This document shows, piece by piece, positions 1,941 to 22,441 of a DNA stretch of 49,305 nucleotides (the first letter of the stretch is position 1; every line of letters begins with the position of its first letter). Source of the DNA: a virus. The notes beneath the pieces were generated by a model. The model had not been told where the DNA came from. It saw only the letters and a list, made by a program, of their open reading frames with translations, and made no database searches. The DNA lies in the IMG/VR virus record IMGVR_UViG_3300019776_000139, positions 1 to 49,305 of that record, one strand, 5' to 3'. The position numbers were made by a program, and so were the translations under genes.

Positions 1941-2534
1941 ATGGAAAACACTGATTTTTTTGATATGTTGAAGCACTACAACATTCCTGTTGTGAATGCT
2001 TACGACATTGATTCATCCAAGCATCCGTCTTACATAGTGGATATCGTTCGTCAAGCAGAAGACTTTGAGGGTGTTGTAATCTGCTGGGAAGATGGTTATC
2101 GCGTAAAGTGTAAGTCGGACTGGTATGTGCGTATTCACAAGGTCAAGTCCCTGCTTGGTCAGGAGCGTGATGTTGTGAAGTTGATCCTGAACAATGAACT
2201 GGACGACTTGCTTCCTGTTCTTCCTCGCGAAGATGTGGAACGAGTGGAAAAGTTCCAAGTTGATTTGATAGAACAACTCCGTCTGTCTGCTTGGACTGTC
2301 TACATGACTGTAATCAAGAACCGTGATACTATGGATCGAAAGACCTTTGCCATCAAGTATGCTCCGACTTTCGATCCTGTTATTCGTGGACTTGTTTTCC
2401 AGTTCTGGGACAAGGAATGTAATGAACACTTGACTTATGCCGCGATTGTTGCTATGATACTCAAGCATTGTGGTTCCAACGCTTCCTACGCAAAGGTCAA
2501 GGAAGCATTTCTGAAGGATGTTGATTATGTCTAA
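1941..2534 (+). CDS. RNA ligase (T4 Rnl1 family), C-terminal half
   Basis: This 197-residue piece completes the ligase begun at 623. It has motif IV (EGVV, Glu43), motif V (KxK in RVKCKSDWY) and an Rnl1-like helical C-terminal region. Without Lys97 on the other piece it cannot be adenylylated, so activity would require association of the two polypeptides. It has its own GGAG site seven bases before the ATG and its own promoter, with a terminator upstream. It overlaps the kinase gene by 8 bases. An intron cannot be excluded: joining T1192 or so to position 1939 would keep the frame. The antisense endonuclease and private promoter make two separate genes more likely. Confidence 0.85.
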   Translation: MENTDFFDMLKHYNIPVVNAYDIDSSKHPSYIVDIVRQAEDFEGVVICWEDGYRVKCKSDWYVRIHKVKSLLGQERDVVKLILNNELDDLLPVLPREDVERVEKFQVDLIEQLRLSAWTVYMTVIKNRDTMDRKTFAIKYAPTFDPVIRGLVFQFWDKECNEHLTYAAIVAMILKHCGSNASYAKVKEAFLKDVDYV

Positions 2535-3000
2535 GCCTGTTCTGTGGATGCTTGTCGGAGTCCCTGGCTCCGGCAAGTCTACTTGGGTGGATCGTCAGCT
2601 TGAAAACTGTGATGATCCTCCTTTCATCGCTTCAACTGATAATCTGCTTGAGCATATTGCCAAGCAAGAAGGCAAAACCTATGATGAGGTTTTTAAGGAC
2701 AATATCAAGGTTGCCGAGAAGCGTATGTATACTCAGGTTGCTCTTGCGACCGATCTTGACGAATGTATCATCTGGGATCAGACCAATCTTACTCGCCGTT
2801 CTCGCGCCAAGAAGTTGATTCTGATTCCAGACCATTACAAGAAGATTGCTGTGTTCTTTCCAACTCCTTTGGACTTGGATGCGCGGCTTGCTTCTCGTCC
2901 TGGTAAGACCATTCCGCCTCACATTGTTGACGCTATGGTCGAAATGATTGAGCAGCCTATGCTTGATGAGGGCTTTGATGAACTCCGATTGGGGAACTGA
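2527..3000 (+). CDS. Polynucleotide 5'-kinase (P-loop; like the N-terminal domain of T4 Pnk)
   Basis: The 157-residue protein has a Walker A motif GVPGSGKST near the N terminus, as in T4 Pnk. It also has a DQTNLTRRSR segment matching the lid/substrate-binding region of RNA and DNA 5'-kinases. It probably phosphorylates 5'-OH ends of cleaved RNA so that the ligase can seal them. In T4 the kinase and phosphatase form one polypeptide; here they are separate genes on either side of the ligase. An in-frame ATG at 2518 exists, but AAGGA at 2514-2518 is spaced correctly only for the ATG at 2527. The gene overlaps the ligase stop. Confidence 0.85.
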   Translation: MSKPVLWMLVGVPGSGKSTWVDRQLENCDDPPFIASTDNLLEHIAKQEGKTYDEVFKDNIKVAEKRMYTQVALATDLDECIIWDQTNLTRRSRAKKLILIPDHYKKIAVFFPTPLDLDARLASRPGKTIPPHIVDAMVEMIEQPMLDEGFDELRLGN

Positions 3001-3268
3001 GGTTGAGGTTGAGCGGAGAAATCGTATCCGCTTGACCTTGGCCGCTTATGCGTATGAGTATGATGATAATTCCATCATGTCGGACGCGGAGTTTGATAAT
3101 CTGTCGCAGGCTATTCGACCTGAAATCGCAACGGGTCACAAGCAACATGACAAGTTCTTTCGCGAAAAGTTTGACGCAAACACCGGTATGTGGATTAGAG
3201 AACATCCGTTTCTTCTTACCGTTGAACGCCGTTATCGTTGGAATCTAAGTAAAGGATACTACAAATGA
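2978..3268 (+). CDS. Small conserved phage protein with DNA-ligase-N-terminus-like segment
   Basis: The 96-residue product contains AYAYEYDDNSIMSDAEFDNL, which resembles the helical N-terminal Ia region of NAD-dependent DNA ligases (the YYVLD...SDAEYD pattern), and ends with TGMWIREHP. No catalytic ligase motifs follow, so it is not an active ligase. The start at 2978 has a GAGG site six bases upstream. It overlaps the kinase by 23 bases and the next gene by four (ATGA). Function is unknown; the similarity to the LigA N terminus is my observation by eye. Confidence 0.7.
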   Translation: MNSDWGTEVEVERRNRIRLTLAAYAYEYDDNSIMSDAEFDNLSQAIRPEIATGHKQHDKFFREKFDANTGMWIREHPFLLTVERRYRWNLSKGYYK

Positions 3269-6571: not shown

Positions 6572-7661
6572 TGCAAAGCATTTTGGAAATGAACCAGATT
6601 TGCGTGGAAAAACTGAGCGTGTTGATGTTATCAACGCCTATAACTGGTATAACTACAATTGTGATGGCGAACAGGCCAAGTCCTGGATCATTGAGTATTT
6701 GAAGGAATTTCACAAGACAGAAAAGGAACTAATCAAAAATGTCAACCGAATTGATTCTAATTATTGTCGTACTAGTGGTTGGAATTGCCGTATACTTTCG
6801 TTGGGCGGCAATCTCCCGCAAGATATCAAAGACCGTAACATCGACCGAATCAGAACCCTCGCAGCCGCCTGCGCCCGTTCCGAATCCAATGACGGACAAG
6901 CCGAAGCGTCAGAGAAAGAAGAAGTCGCAAAGCCAGTAATTTCCATTCAGGAGCGTGTGACTAATCGTGCCAATGAATTGATTGCCGATCTAGAAGAGCA
7001 TCTGGATAATTACTACCGCGATGGTAGTACGTTCAAGCCAGTTGATTGGCTTTCTCAGCGTGACGTTAAGCCGATGATTGCTCAGAAGATTGCTGACTAC
7101 TATAAGCCTCTTTATGCTGAAATCTTTGACGCTCTGAATGGCAAGGATGACCAGCTTAGAGAGGCTTACTCTTCCTGGAAAAAGCCAAAGCTTAAGGCAT
7201 ACATTGAGTTTATTCGGTCTATCGTTTCGGCCGCAGAAACTCGCGCAACTCTTGTTAAGGTAACTCGTAAGCCTCGCAAGAAGAAAGAAAAGTCTCCTGT
7301 TCAGCTGGTCGCTAAACTCAAGTATAAGGAAAAGGATGATGAATACAAGCTTGTATCGGTTGATCCGAAGCAAATCATTGGCTGCAATCAGCTTTGGGTC
7401 TTCAATACCAAATATCGAACTCTGGCTGTTTACAATGCTATGGGCCCTGCTGGGCTTAACGTCAAGGGCAGCACACTAACTGGTTTTGACGAAAAGACTT
7501 CCATTGTTAAGAAGCTTCGCAAGCCCACTGAACAACTGAACAAGTTGAAGGATGGCGGTAAGGTCATTCTTAGAAAGTTCATGGACGATATCAAGTGTAA
7601 AGCTAAGGAAGCAAACGGTCGCATAAATAATGAGACTGTTCTGATAAGGATTATCAAATGA
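6537..7661 (+). CDS. Conserved T4-superfamily protein of unknown function (374 aa)
   Basis: This long, lysine-rich protein matches a family I know from T4-like phages of cyanobacteria and other marine or soil hosts. Landmarks are AYNWYNY, GWNCRIL, SIQERV, KKPKLKAYIEFI, a KPRKKKEK basic linker, the IIGCNQLWVFNTK segment and a closing NETVLIRIIK. It is probably a DNA-associated or virion-assembly factor, but no function is established. A second frame at 6739-6939 is embedded in it. Confidence 0.85.
   Translation: MAKKTKTAKALDAKHFGNEPDLRGKTERVDVINAYNWYNYNCDGEQAKSWIIEYLKEFHKTEKELIKNVNRIDSNYCRTSGWNCRILSLGGNLPQDIKDRNIDRIRTLAAACARSESNDGQAEASEKEEVAKPVISIQERVTNRANELIADLEEHLDNYYRDGSTFKPVDWLSQRDVKPMIAQKIADYYKPLYAEIFDALNGKDDQLREAYSSWKKPKLKAYIEFIRSIVSAAETRATLVKVTRKPRKKKEKSPVQLVAKLKYKEKDDEYKLVSVDPKQIIGCNQLWVFNTKYRTLAVYNAMGPAGLNVKGSTLTGFDEKTSIVKKLRKPTEQLNKLKDGGKVILRKFMDDIKCKAKEANGRINNETVLIRIIK
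6739..6939 (+). CDS. Possible overprinted small membrane protein nested in the 374-aa gene
   Basis: In a different frame from the surrounding gene, 66 codons encode one clean membrane span (LILIIVVLVVGIAVYF). A Ser/Pro-rich segment (EPSQPPAPVPNP) and a basic tail (KPKRQRKKK) follow. AAGGA lies 11 bases before the ATG. Such a well-formed single-pass protein is unlike most shadow frames, but the enclosing gene is clearly conserved here, so chance is a real alternative. Confidence 0.3.
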   Translation: MSTELILIIVVLVVGIAVYFRWAAISRKISKTVTSTESEPSQPPAPVPNPMTDKPKRQRKKKSQSQ

Positions 7662-17999: not shown

Positions 18000-18629
18000 A
18001 TGAAACGTTACGTAATTGGTGATATTCATGGCTGTTATGATGAGTTGATGGAACTCTTAGACAAGATCATGGATCATGCAAAGGAGAAGCACCAGCTTAT
18101 CTTTGTTGGTGATTATGTTGATCGCGGCCCAAAATCAAAAGAAGTTGTAGAGCAGATTAGATGGCTTCAGGATAAAGAGGGCGCTATTGCTCTCATGGGC
18201 AATCATGAGGACATGATTATCTCTGGTGAGTTGATGTATGCTGCTGAGACCATCGTCAGCTTCGGTGGTTTTCGCGGTCATTATATACCTGAGTGGGCAA
18301 TGGACTGGATGCGCTCTCTGCCTAAGTATTATGAGGACGATACAATCATTGTTGCTCATGCTGGCGGTGCACCTCATGTGAAGATGGCAGATCAATCTGA
18401 TACTATGTTGCTTTGGTTCAGATATACGCCAACTCAATGTGCTTATCTCGGTAAGCATTTCTATCACGGACATACTCCGTTCAGAGGATCAATTGAGCAG
18501 GCTGGTGATCGCACAAACGTTGATACAGCGTGTGTGTATGGCGGCCATCTAACAGCCGCTATTGTAGGAGATGATGGTAAGCCTGAAGGTTTCATTCAGG
18601 TGCCAGCAAAGAATGGTGTGTATGCTTAA
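18000..18629 (+). CDS. Serine/threonine protein phosphatase-like enzyme (PPP family)
   Basis: The 209-residue protein has GDIHGCYDEL, GDYVDRGPKS, GNHED and later HAGG and YHGHTPF, the order of bacteriophage lambda-type PPP phosphatases (lambda PP is 221 residues). It could dephosphorylate host proteins or RNA ends. It is the third phosphoesterase in the window after 174-614 and 3850-4518. Confidence 0.9.
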   Translation: MKRYVIGDIHGCYDELMELLDKIMDHAKEKHQLIFVGDYVDRGPKSKEVVEQIRWLQDKEGAIALMGNHEDMIISGELMYAAETIVSFGGFRGHYIPEWAMDWMRSLPKYYEDDTIIVAHAGGAPHVKMADQSDTMLLWFRYTPTQCAYLGKHFYHGHTPFRGSIEQAGDRTNVDTACVYGGHLTAAIVGDDGKPEGFIQVPAKNGVYA

Positions 18630-18706
18630 AGCATATATACTATGTTATCGATGAAGAGGATCGAAAAACACTGAGGACTGGGGGGCAGTACCCCACGCCT
18701 CCACCA

Positions 18707-18801
18707 CGAACACACCAAACGGTTCAGGTTCCGCAAGGTGCGTTAATCAACTAAGAACTGTGGTTTGAGACCACTATGTCCTTGCTTGGTGTGTTCTTGA
18801 T
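18707..18801 (+). other. tmRNA intervening segment removed during maturation
   Basis: This segment separates the CCA end of the acceptor piece from G1 of the coding piece. GAACACACCAA (18708-18718) and TTGGTGTGTTC (18786-18796) form a perfect 11-bp helix that would stack on the acceptor stem in the precursor. It probably guides processing at both ends. Confidence 0.85.
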
Positions 18802-18888
18802 GGGGGCGAACTAGGATCGACTGGGTGTAAAATAGTGAATTGGAGATAACCGAGAGGCGACTGTCGTATACAGCGCAAAACAATAGTT

Positions 18889-18936
18889 GCAAACGATAAC
18901 GTTCCTGCATCTAAGGCTTTCGCTCTAGCAGCGTAA
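18889..18936 (+). other. tmRNA tag-peptide reading frame
   Basis: The resume codon GCA at 18889 opens a frame ending at TAA 18934-18936. With the alanine delivered by the charged tmRNA, the tag is AANDNVPASKAFALAA. AANDN at the start and ALAA at the end match alphaproteobacterial tags and the ClpXP/SspB-type degradation signal. The middle (VPASKAF) is unusual and includes a proline. Confidence 0.92.
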
Positions 18937-18994
18937 GACCTGTGGGTATGGTTCCACCTAGAAACAGAACGGGCCACCATTTACTGAGGCTGAG

Positions 18995-19369
18995 ATGAAA
19001 AAGTGTAAAAGATGCCAAGTGACAAAACCACTCTCACAGTTTTACAAGAGTGGCACAAATGCAAAGGGTGAAGCAAAATACAAACCCAGATGCATTCCTT
19101 GCCATCTAAATCTTATCAGTGAGAAACGCCAACACGTTCAATCCCTGATCATTGAAACTCTCGGATCGTATTCTTGTAAGTTATGTGGATATGATAGGTC
19201 TTCAAGAGCCCTTCATTTACATCACATTGACTCATCGACAAAAGACTATCAAATCTCTGATATGTGGTCAATGTCGGACAGTGCAATCAAGAATGAAATT
19301 TCAAAATGTGTTATTCTATGTGCTAACTGTCATGCAGAAGTACATGAAGGTATAACACCTTTGCACTAG
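18995..19369 (+). CDS. HNH endonuclease adjacent to the tmRNA
   Basis: The 124-residue protein has an N-terminal CKRC...CIPC zinc-binding pair and an HNH core: CKLCGYDR, ALHLHHIDSS and CVILCANCHAEVHEG. This is the usual small phage homing-type nuclease with treble-clef zinc sites. Its ATG lies about 15 bases after the presumed 3' end of the tmRNA coding piece, with GAGG upstream. Homing endonucleases often sit next to conserved targets; the tmRNA gene is the likely target. It could also be intron-associated, but no group I core is evident. Confidence 0.9.
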   Translation: MKKCKRCQVTKPLSQFYKSGTNAKGEAKYKPRCIPCHLNLISEKRQHVQSLIIETLGSYSCKLCGYDRSSRALHLHHIDSSTKDYQISDMWSMSDSAIKNEISKCVILCANCHAEVHEGITPLH

Positions 19370-19478: not shown

Positions 19479-19730
19479 ATGGCAAAAACACCATATGAAA
19501 TTCGCTTTGATCTTTTGGCAATGGCCCAATCAATCATCACAGAAAATTTAATGAACGAACGCATTCGTCTTGAAAACGATTGGAGCCTTGAACGTGAAAA
19601 GGCATCTATCGCTCTTTCGCAAAACAAGGATGTTGTTCTTCCACCATATCCCATTGTTCCTCAGATTGATGTGAATAGCGTTATCGCATTGGCTGAAATT
19701 CTAAACAAGTTCGTGTCCAAGAACGACTAA
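19479..19730 (+). CDS. Conserved small phage protein (83 aa)
   Basis: The protein (MAKTPYEIRFDLLAMAQ, ENLMNERIRLENDW, then a PPYPIVPQIDVNSVIALAEILNKFV end) matches a small helical family I know from T4-like phages without a known role. A GGAG site precedes the ATG. Confidence 0.75.
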   Translation: MAKTPYEIRFDLLAMAQSIITENLMNERIRLENDWSLEREKASIALSQNKDVVLPPYPIVPQIDVNSVIALAEILNKFVSKND

Positions 19731-19760: not shown

Positions 19761-20216
19761 ATGAAAGTTGTTAAGCCTTTTTATATTTGGTGGATTACTA
19801 ATCTAGCCGTAGCTTCTGGCGTTTTCTGGGCATATCATACTGGAATAATTCAGAAGATTTGGCACGATGATGTGACGATGATCACAACGGCCCTCGCTAT
19901 TCTTTACATCATAACCACATCACTCATTGGTTATGTTGCATATACAAAAGACTATGCTAGCAAGCTTGTAGATGCTTGCTGGTTCCTATCAGAACAAATG
20001 CTAGCTCTTGGCATGTTAGGTACGGTTATCGGCTTCATCTATCTACTTTCTTCTGGCATTACATCTGCATCGGTCACTGACCCAACAAGTCTGTCTGGAC
20101 TTCTAGCTCATATGTCTGTCGGTCTTGGTATTGCTCTTTACACAAATGCTGTTGGTATTCTAGCAAGTCTTATCTCAAAGACTTTGCTATACGTAGTAAC
20201 GTATGATGAGTCATAG
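19761..20216 (+). CDS. ExbB/TolQ/MotA-like proton-channel protein (151 aa)
   Basis: Four hydrophobic spans lie at about residues 8-24, 41-62, 77-96 and 117-144. The third and fourth carry the family signature: LGMLGTVIGFIYLL, then GLGIALYTNAVGILASLI, the paired pore helices of ExbB/TolQ/MotA. The large cytoplasmic loop of bacterial ExbB is largely missing, so it is a minimal channel. The downstream gene is a plausible ExbD/MotB partner, overlapping by 14 bases. A CAGAC/GTCTG hairpin lies in the leader. Confidence 0.75.
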   Translation: MKVVKPFYIWWITNLAVASGVFWAYHTGIIQKIWHDDVTMITTALAILYIITTSLIGYVAYTKDYASKLVDACWFLSEQMLALGMLGTVIGFIYLLSSGITSASVTDPTSLSGLLAHMSVGLGIALYTNAVGILASLISKTLLYVVTYDES

Positions 20217-20847
20217 AAAGTTCGACTTCCGCACAGCATATATTGACCTTCTAATCAACCTGCTGACAGGCACGGTCGTTCTATTCATTCTTACCACACT
20301 TCTCATTGCACCAATCACGAAGAACACAGAAGGCATCAAGAAGAATGCCGACTATGTTTTGACTGTTGAGTGGCCAGAAAAGATGGACTGCGATGTTGAT
20401 ATGTGGGTTCGTGATCCACAAAACAATGTCGTATCGTATCGTTTCAGCGAAGCTGGTCTGATGTATTTCGAGCGTGATGATATGGGCAAGCGCCGCAGCG
20501 TCTACGAAATAGACGGCAAAGAAGTTGTAATTGATCCAGATAACAAAGAGTTTGTAACACTGCGCGGTACATTTCCTGGCGAGTATGTTCTAAATCTTCA
20601 CGTATACTCTTGCTTAGATCCAAAAACTAATCTGGCATTGTCTGCTGGTGAGCTTATTGATGTTCCTGTCATAGTTGAGATAGTCAGAATCAATCCATCA
20701 TTCATTGTCGTCAAGCATCTTGAATTGAAGATGGAAAGCGTGTGGCAAGAAAAGACAGCCATTCGCTTTGTCATGGACAGCAACAAGAATATTCTTCGCT
20801 TCAAGAACGACTTTGTATCTGTAAGAGTTGGAAACAAAACACCATGA
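20203..20847 (+). CDS. ExbD/MotB-like partner with periplasmic beta-domain (214 aa)
   Basis: A short cytoplasmic N terminus leads into one membrane helix, AYIDLLINLLTGTVVLFILT. Asp15 is placed like the proton-carrying aspartate of ExbD/MotB. The periplasmic part (40-214) is beta-rich: DVDMWVRDPQNNVVSYRF, a GEYVLNLHVYS strand and a C-terminal sheet. This resembles DUF2135/YfaP-type domains rather than ExbD or OmpA-like peptidoglycan-binding domains. The role is inferred from the pair: a proton-driven device of unknown output. It overlaps genes on both sides. Confidence 0.65.
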   Translation: MMSHRKFDFRTAYIDLLINLLTGTVVLFILTTLLIAPITKNTEGIKKNADYVLTVEWPEKMDCDVDMWVRDPQNNVVSYRFSEAGLMYFERDDMGKRRSVYEIDGKEVVIDPDNKEFVTLRGTFPGEYVLNLHVYSCLDPKTNLALSAGELIDVPVIVEIVRINPSFIVVKHLELKMESVWQEKTAIRFVMDSNKNILRFKNDFVSVRVGNKTP

Positions 20848-21428
20848 CACAAACAATTTTACTCATGCTTGCATTGTTCATTGCACTGACAACAGCAATA
20901 GCATTTTATTGGAACAACAAGACAATGAAGTTTATTGTCATTGCTCTGTTTGTTGTTCTAGCAAATGCTGTATACTTCTCTCTTGATGGCGTCAAAGGAT
21001 GGCCTGCAAATGAAAAGCAAGAAGTCAAGGGTGTTCTAGCATCTGTCGTTATTATCAATCCATCAGACATGAGCGAAGGTGCAATTATCATCAGTCTCTT
21101 TCCTAGAGTAGATACGAAGTGGTATGAGTATGTCTATCCGAAATATGCACCAAAGACATATTATCTCGAATACTCAAACGATAGAGCAGCAGAGTTTGAA
21201 AAAGCAAAACAAGCTATGATGGAAGGCAAAGAAGTCCGTATCAATTCAATACCGCCAAAGAATGCAAAGGGTGGTGATATGGAAGGTGATATCTCTGAAT
21301 CTATAACAGAAGCTATTAACAACATCATGGGTAAGATAATACCAAAGCAGGGTGATACGTATAAACCAAAAGTGCCTGATGTTGAAATTTTAGAACAGCA
21401 AGTTCCGCCTGAGAAAGGGTCGCAATAA
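20844..21428 (+). CDS. Membrane-anchored protein of the channel operon (194 aa)
   Basis: Two N-terminal membrane spans (about 4-22 and 28-46) are followed by a soluble, probably periplasmic domain (GVLASVVIINPSDMSEGAIIISLFPR) and a Pro/Lys-rich tail ending EQQVPPEKGSQ. Its ATG overlaps the ExbD-like stop (ATGA) and its stop overlaps the protease start (TAATG region). No family is recognised; the position argues for a component of the same complex. Confidence 0.68.
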   Translation: MTQTILLMLALFIALTTAIAFYWNNKTMKFIVIALFVVLANAVYFSLDGVKGWPANEKQEVKGVLASVVIINPSDMSEGAIIISLFPRVDTKWYEYVYPKYAPKTYYLEYSNDRAAEFEKAKQAMMEGKEVRINSIPPKNAKGGDMEGDISESITEAINNIMGKIIPKQGDTYKPKVPDVEILEQQVPPEKGSQ

Positions 21429-22441
21429 TGACATATAGTTTGCCAAAGGGTGTTTACGCAATATTGTTAGGAGGCATATTGCTTTCTATCATAGCTTTCA
21501 ATCTAGACACAAGACCACGAAACACAGTTGAGTTGGTTGAGCAAGTCAAGCCAGGCACAGTGCTTATCACAAATCAGATTGATGCGACAAGCGGAGGTTC
21601 TGGCTCAGGGTTCATTCTTGAAGACAACATGATTATTACCAATCATCATGTCATTGATGGTAACGGCAAGATTAGTGTCTATTCACCAAACTCGCGCAAG
21701 AAGTATGAAGCAAAGGTAGTCTATCAGGATAAGATTGTAGACCTTGCAATTCTCAGATTGCTTGATTGGGAACTATTTGAGAAAGAACAAAAGCCCGTAA
21801 ATCTTAAACTTGGTGACAGCGATGAAACAACTGAGGGCGACAAGATTGTTGTAATCGGTAATCCTTGGGGTCTAACTTGGTCTGTTTCAGAGGGCATTCT
21901 TTCGGCAAAGAACAGACGGGCAGGGCCAAATCCAAAGTATCTAGACCAAGTTGATGCTAAGGTATATCAAGGCAACTCTGGTGGTCCAATCTTCAACGAA
22001 AACGGACAAGTTATTTGTGTCAGCGAAATCATGTTATCTGGTGAAGGCGGTAGCTACGGCTTCTGTATTCCATCTAATCTCGTAAAGAAGGTAATTCACG
22101 ATTTCAATGTTCTCGGTGAAGTCAGATGGCGTGTAATAAATGTAGCTATTGGGTTGACAGATGACGGCAGTAATGTTATATTACAAAGTGTGGAGCCTGG
22201 TGGTGCTGCTGGAAAAGCAGGACTGAAAGAGGGTGATAAGATTCTAACTATCTTTACCAAAGACAATAGAACAGGTAAGAAAATCGTAACACCTGATGAT
22301 ATGATTACTGAACTGGCTACACTACACGGTGATGATGAAGATGTTAGAGTTGCAATTGATAGAAACGGAGAAAAGATGATGATTGATGTGAAGACAAACT
22401 ATAAGCTATCTAGTGAATATACTCCTGACAAGGCAAGATAA
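21428..22441 (+). CDS. HtrA/DegP-like serine protease with PDZ domain
   Basis: The 337-residue protein has an N-terminal membrane span (about 9-25) and a trypsin-fold domain with the triad His74 (TNHHV), Asp105 (VDLAIL) and Ser184 (GNSGG). A PDZ domain (about 230-325) contains VEPGGAAGKAGLKEGDKIL. DegS/DegP-type proteases act in the periplasm on misfolded or regulatory envelope proteins. One membrane anchor and one PDZ make it DegS-like. Such proteases are rare in phages. Its placement after the ExbBD-like pair suggests they work together at the envelope. Confidence 0.9.
   Translation: MTYSLPKGVYAILLGGILLSIIAFNLDTRPRNTVELVEQVKPGTVLITNQIDATSGGSGSGFILEDNMIITNHHVIDGNGKISVYSPNSRKKYEAKVVYQDKIVDLAILRLLDWELFEKEQKPVNLKLGDSDETTEGDKIVVIGNPWGLTWSVSEGILSAKNRRAGPNPKYLDQVDAKVYQGNSGGPIFNENGQVICVSEIMLSGEGGSYGFCIPSNLVKKVIHDFNVLGEVRWRVINVAIGLTDDGSNVILQSVEPGGAAGKAGLKEGDKILTIFTKDNRTGKKIVTPDDMITELATLHGDDEDVRVAIDRNGEKMMIDVKTNYKLSSEYTPDKAR

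Follow-up and report, generated by a model that had tools for sequence, protein, structure and literature searches.

The window analysed here, an entire IMG/VR record of 49,305 bases, carries a real, complete, circularly permuted two-piece tmRNA gene. Judging from its sequence and those of its relatives, we read it, with a probability of about 85%, as a working alpha-type gene that belongs to a T4-like phage lineage and supplies host-type ribosome rescue. The window is a piece of a T4-like phage, as the preliminary description of this DNA had proposed, with genes for gp32, a gp59-type helicase loader and baseplate components.

Two Rfam covariance models match the gene over their full length. 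RF04321 (tmRNA_permuted, cut-off 47 bits) covers 18644–18936 with model positions 1–213 of 213 (129.5 bits, E = 3.7e-25), and RF01849 (alpha_tmRNA, cut-off 50 bits) covers 18580–18978 with positions 1–355 of 355 (106.7 bits). Independently of these models, ARAGORN calls a permuted tmRNA at 18614–19027, with the tag ANDNVPASKAFALAA followed by a stop. The acceptor piece lies upstream of the coding piece, and joining the two is an acceptor stem in which a position script finds 7 of 7 pairs, including G3–U70, with CCA present. G3–U70 is the classic alanyl-tRNA synthetase signal. The T-arm is intact, as is the P2 helix, which likewise links the two pieces, and the tag frame leads from the resume codon through a short frame with a hydrophobic AA end to a stop codon. 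The preliminary description had claimed a complete two-piece ssrA with CGCCTCC paired to GGGGGCG, a helix 2 formed across the pieces by ACACT and GGTGT (the P2 helix of the model) and a canonical resume and tag region. All of these are borne out; its positions for the end of the CCA (18706) and for G1 (18802) are right to the base, and the alpha_tmRNA model and ARAGORN, the check it had suggested, both return the permuted topology. Absent from it was the 11-bp inverted repeat closing the intervening segment. The features of the locus are as follows.

18000–18629, + strand: NinI-like metallophosphatase, conserved upstream neighbour by synteny (phrog_246, E = 7.8e-48; PF00149)
18644–18706, + strand: acceptor piece, from the RF04321 start to the CCA at 18706; 5′ end uncertain, model-based
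18669–18675, + strand: P2 helix strand of the acceptor piece, CACTGAG, from the covariance model structure line; inner pairs covary in viral relatives
18679–18695, + strand: T-arm with a 5-bp stem and the alphaproteobacterial-type loop GGCAGTA (covariance model and position script)
18696–18702, + strand: 3′ strand of the acceptor stem, CGCCTCC, followed by A73-CCA at 18703–18706 (CCA at 18704–18706)
18707–18801, + strand: intervening segment, 95 nt, an insert relative to the covariance model, predicted absent from the mature RNA
18708–18718, + strand: 5′ arm of the 11-bp closing stem (perfect inverted repeat)
18786–18796, + strand: 3′ arm of the 11-bp closing stem (perfect inverted repeat)
18802–18978, + strand: coding piece (RF01849); G1 at 18802 well defined, 3′ end approximate, model-based
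18802–18808, + strand: 5′ strand of the acceptor stem, GGGGGCG; G3 pairs with U70
18821–18827, + strand: P2 helix strand of the coding piece, CTGGGTG (covariance model, covariation)
18889–18936, + strand: tag frame, ANDNVPASKAFALAA and stop; resume codon GCA (GCA AAC GAT AAC ... GCG TAA)
18995–19369, + strand: HNH endonuclease gene, starting 17 nt after the coding piece (phrog_2255, E = 8.9e-34)
19479–19730, + strand: o19479 (MAKTPYEIRFDLL...), small conserved downstream neighbour that marks the lineage's tmRNA locus by synteny

The tmRNA sits in the phage genome at a conserved locus, independent of any integration site. Relatives share the order PhoH, nucleotidyltransferase, PD-(D/E)XK exonuclease, NinI-like phosphatase, tmRNA, o19479, membrane gene trio, HtrA, o22665, gp59 and gp32, although not every phage has all of these genes. 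Every examined relative that has both flanks carries the tmRNA at the same place, including those that ARAGORN missed, and the locus is kept though the neighbouring proteins of relatives differ by 20–40%. Occupying 19761–22441 of the window are the membrane gene trio, of MotA/TolQ-like look and with no family match, and then the HtrA-like PDZ protease, an arrangement conserved in many relatives. A DNA search of the GenBank phage set gave short matches only.

Within the lineage, acceptor pairs 4 (G–C/C–G), 5 (G–C/C–G/T–A) and 6 (C–G/A–T/T–A) change on both sides, and G1, G2, G3–U70 and pair 7 are fixed, G3–U70 being present in all 18 members listed; as the script demanded pairing in the acceptor stem and T-arm, only the diversity of these pairs, not their counts, is informative. 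The inner pairs of P2 covary across 84 distinct viral P2 combinations, with 66% paired versus 53% for reshuffled partners, and 0 of 1,000 reshufflings reach the observed value. The tags keep ANDN and an AA at their C-terminus; members of the lineage have one of two types, ..ASKAYALAA or ..APRLALAA, each opening with ANDN and closing with ALAA. Because relatives have the tmRNA at the same position, flanked by the same genes, and its structure covaries within the lineage, we regard it as an old phage gene and not a recent host capture. A hitch-hiking fragment of host ssrA, recently acquired by imprecise excision or at an integration site and without phage function, would fit the clearly alphaproteobacterial type of the RNA and the frequent use of tmRNA genes as integration sites (PMC11915505, PMC9004378), but is highly improbable given the constant locus amid divergent neighbours, the covarying stems and the tags intact throughout. 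By bit score, too, the window copy resembles other phage copies (up to 319 bits, L245) far more than the bacterial copies tested (at best 88 bits, in a comparison set selected by an identical 20-mer and so motif-biased). Three loci of Isosphaeraceae (Planctomycetes; L131, L148 and L165) carry the exact alphaproteobacterial 20-mer GGGGGCGAACTAGGATCGAC; the script found no permuted acceptor piece in them, and the genome of L131 (G012) is without a permuted-model match.

SmpB was not found in the window, a partial genome in which the gene may lie at a distance, or in eight whole phage records, five of which have a tmRNA, so host SmpB appears to be needed. The processing enzymes proposed for bacterial two-piece tmRNA are RNase P and a tRNA 3′ nuclease (PMC3985003). 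By its pairing potential, a single transcript of the window gene would run through the acceptor piece, the intervening segment and the coding piece, with the two pieces paired via the acceptor stem and P2. The 11-bp stem may draw the cleavage sites together; host RNase P would cut before G18802 and host tRNA 3′ processing after the CCA at 18706, and the intervening segment would be discarded. Charged with alanine by host AlaRS and bound by host SmpB, the two-piece RNA would enter ribosomes stalled on broken mRNA during infection and append ANDNVPASKAFALAA, the tagged product probably being passed to host ClpXP-type proteases. The most likely benefit to the phage is that ribosomes stay available during decay of host and phage mRNA, and we infer a role in ribosome supply over one in altered tagging.

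The identity and tag elements are all intact, and phages of the lineage retain the gene at a single position, so the supply of ribosome rescue appears to be the best reading, and this part of the preliminary description stands. Its further suggestion, a tag with its own protease route, is not supported, although a protease gene may lie in the part of the genome beyond the window. The phage tmRNA would in that case redirect tagging, a divergent tag sending products to the phage HtrA/PDZ protease (21428–22441) or away from ClpXP. It is true that a gene 2.5 kb downstream encodes a trypsin-like PDZ protease, which is widespread among lineage members, and that the central part of the tag differs from phage to phage. 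However, ANDN and ALAA are kept as in bacterial tags, and ALAA is the ClpX/ClpA signal (PMC3985003). The HtrA-like protein was set aside as a dedicated tag protease owing to its hydrophobic N-terminus, which suggests a membrane or periplasmic location, and to its being missing between o19479 and gp59 in the tmRNA-bearing L244 and L245; redirected tagging is thus quite unlikely. It is also very unlikely that the RNA acts as a decoy or inhibitor of trans-translation in the host. A precedent is reported for one phage, the tag-less form of mycobacteriophage DS6A (PMC11915505), but the window gene retains its resume codon, tag frame and stop, and throughout the lineage the ends of the tag are constrained. 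Unusually long tags, of 19–22 aa, are seen in the phage tmRNAs L054, L074 and L120.

The preliminary description had also tied the phage to an alphaproteobacterial host. This assignment is plausible but not safe, because phage Melnitz, which has an alpha-type tmRNA, infects a gammaproteobacterium (PMC9004378); caution is needed, as tmRNA type is not a safe guide to a phage's host. The window represents a conserved, vertically kept case of a phage lineage that maintains a full alpha-type tmRNA and, it seems, relies on the SmpB of its host.

The perfect 11-bp stem that closes the 95-nt segment of the window is of a length reached by 54 of 20,000 shuffles. End stems of at least 8 bp are found in 16 of 17 lineage members and in 95 of 112 phage copies, versus 39 of 84 in the bacterial set and 5% of shuffles. 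Segment length has a median of 80 nt in viruses and 39 nt in the bacterial set, and segments of at least 130 nt make up 28 of 156 distinct viral versus 1 of 88 bacterial cases, counts that come from a stricter script (L057, L167 and L179 contain a nearer acceptor copy). The sole long segment of the bacterial set, L154 (genome G011, labelled Euryarchaeota), lies on a phage contig that also encodes an endolysin and a gp59-type helicase loader, so that at least this ‘archaeal’ tmRNA is explained by T4-like phage DNA having been binned with the genome. As a second control, 240 genomes were drawn from the class to which G009 belongs (G009, an alphaproteobacterium, is the genome with the Sphingobium locus L134); among the best full-length matches listed, only three span more than 330 bases (332, 351 and 419), and such a list may miss long ones.

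Searched alone against Rfam with E up to 10, the window segment returns tmRNA models only, with no tRNA, riboswitch or intron match. Its mini-ORF MSLLGVFLMGAN was rejected as not significant in the ORF test (p = 0.80), and a tRNA reading of the T-arm-like hairpin GTGGTTTGAGACCAC (18747–18766) was dropped, as no tRNA model matches. T-arm-like hairpins similar to GTGGTTTGAGACCAC also occur in the segments of L016, L029 and L090. The 410-nt segment of Sinorhizobium phage Phosso (L122, 2506–2915) looks structured, with no significant ORF and no further Rfam match. Nearly identical 79-nt segments in L026 and L033 accompany different tags (ANDNFVASEIRLAA and ANDNNAYEMALAA), a pattern that suggests that either the segment or the coding piece has been exchanged.

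The new part of this work is the protein genes in the intervening segments of relatives. In the open-access literature we found no report of protein genes inside this segment; the published cases are one segment with a tRNA-Ala and one that contains a repeat (PMC11915505). Many long viral segments are taken up by one reading frame, and among segments of at least 130 nt (n = 29) the longest ORF is significant against dinucleotide shuffles at p < 0.05 in 21 and at p ≤ 0.01 in 14, tests that do not prove translation. Homologous segment ORFs differ between phages mostly at third codon positions, with dN/dS of 0.08–0.31 in most measurable pairs and 0.51 in one close pair. In four relatives from the window's lineage, HNH genes of two types lie wholly, or all but their last codons, inside the segment, with the tmRNA halves intact.

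L251, segment 6842–7168: 104-aa HNH ORF at 6853–7167, 95% of the segment (phrog_2255, E = 2e-25)
L247, segment 2624–3104: 142-aa HNH protein of the second type (phrog_655, E about 1.6e-11; Pfam HNH above cut-off)
L250, segment 5151–5664: 151-aa HNH protein of the second type (phrog_655, E about 1.6e-11)
L354, segment 2431–2894: 131-aa HNH protein of the second type, ORF 2498–2893

The L251 sequence recurs in contigs L343–L346, and its HNH protein is 37% identical to that of the window, whose own Pfam HNH match falls below the cut-off; of L247 and L250, only L247 exceeds it. Enclosing the L354 gene is a full-length alpha_tmRNA match of 103 bits (2330–3066). The window HNH gene is located outside the segment, between CCACC and the TTTGCNCTAGTGCC motif, and in L251 this motif follows the tmRNA almost directly. 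A second-type HNH gene lies just upstream of a tmRNA in L349, and relatives of the window HNH are found among tRNA genes in L428, L429, L431 and L434. From this pattern of presence and absence at the tmRNA site, together with the relatives amid tRNA genes, we read the HNH endonucleases as settling at tRNA-like genes, perhaps by homing, with the permuted tmRNA segment as a refuge.

Other small ORFs of about 40–120 aa occupy the segments of L062, L055, L048, L019, L059, L063, L068, L060 and L106, and of the further loci L117, L007, L008, L042, L075, L005, L051, L074 and L024. They form at least three homologous groups, and the L019 ORF matches DUF6356. Many have a ribosome-binding-like site, which in some, such as L060, is within the closing stem, and they often end in TGA just before G1. 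In some segment ORFs the stop codon overlaps or directly adjoins the acceptor strand, so that translation might compete with processing. The permuted design would, as a side effect, turn the discarded segment into a tolerated insertion site, inserts being harmless to the tmRNA because tRNA-type processing would remove them. The segment is thus probably a splicing-free cargo site, its transcript both tmRNA precursor and mRNA, and the window HNH gene would be a sibling element of the same mobile system. Mobile endonucleases seem in this way to find a safe home in a permuted RNA gene without any need for an intron, with removal left to tRNA processing.

The two-piece tmRNA of phages is already known, and the window gene adds another member. 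It was described in phage Melnitz (PMC9004378), where a 2021 set of 18,146 phage genomes yielded 53 two-piece structures, of which marine or aquatic phages account for 50. RF04321 has its origin in a database paper of 2025 that includes 79 phage sequences (PMC11915505). At least 120 IMG/VR stretches match one alpha-type motif, most of them readable as permuted tmRNAs, and RcSimone-Hastad and Phosso carry unannotated ones. Given these published cases and motif matches, the window tmRNA is not a new kind.

With the alpha-type two-piece tmRNA (RF01849/RF04321) the window gene shares its gene order, the pairing of acceptor stem, P2 and T-arm, a GGCRGTA-type T-loop, an ANDN...AA tag and G3–U70, but it is phage-borne and its segment is longer (95 nt, against the medians given above). 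Melnitz and the Pelagibacter phages HTVC008M and Mosig are, like the window, T4-like phages with an alpha-type permuted tmRNA and no SmpB gene found; the neighbourhood differs. In Melnitz the tmRNA is followed directly by a glutamine riboswitch; the window has none, and an HNH gene takes that position. A further parallel is found in one-piece tmRNA genes, whose group I introns can harbour homing endonuclease genes, likewise in a part of the transcript that is removed; endonuclease genes are reported in 36 of 883 tmRNA intron forms (PMC11915505). In contrast to these, the ORFs of L251, L247, L250 and L354 are of the HNH type and use the permuted-gene segment, which would be removed by tRNA-type processing and not by self-splicing.
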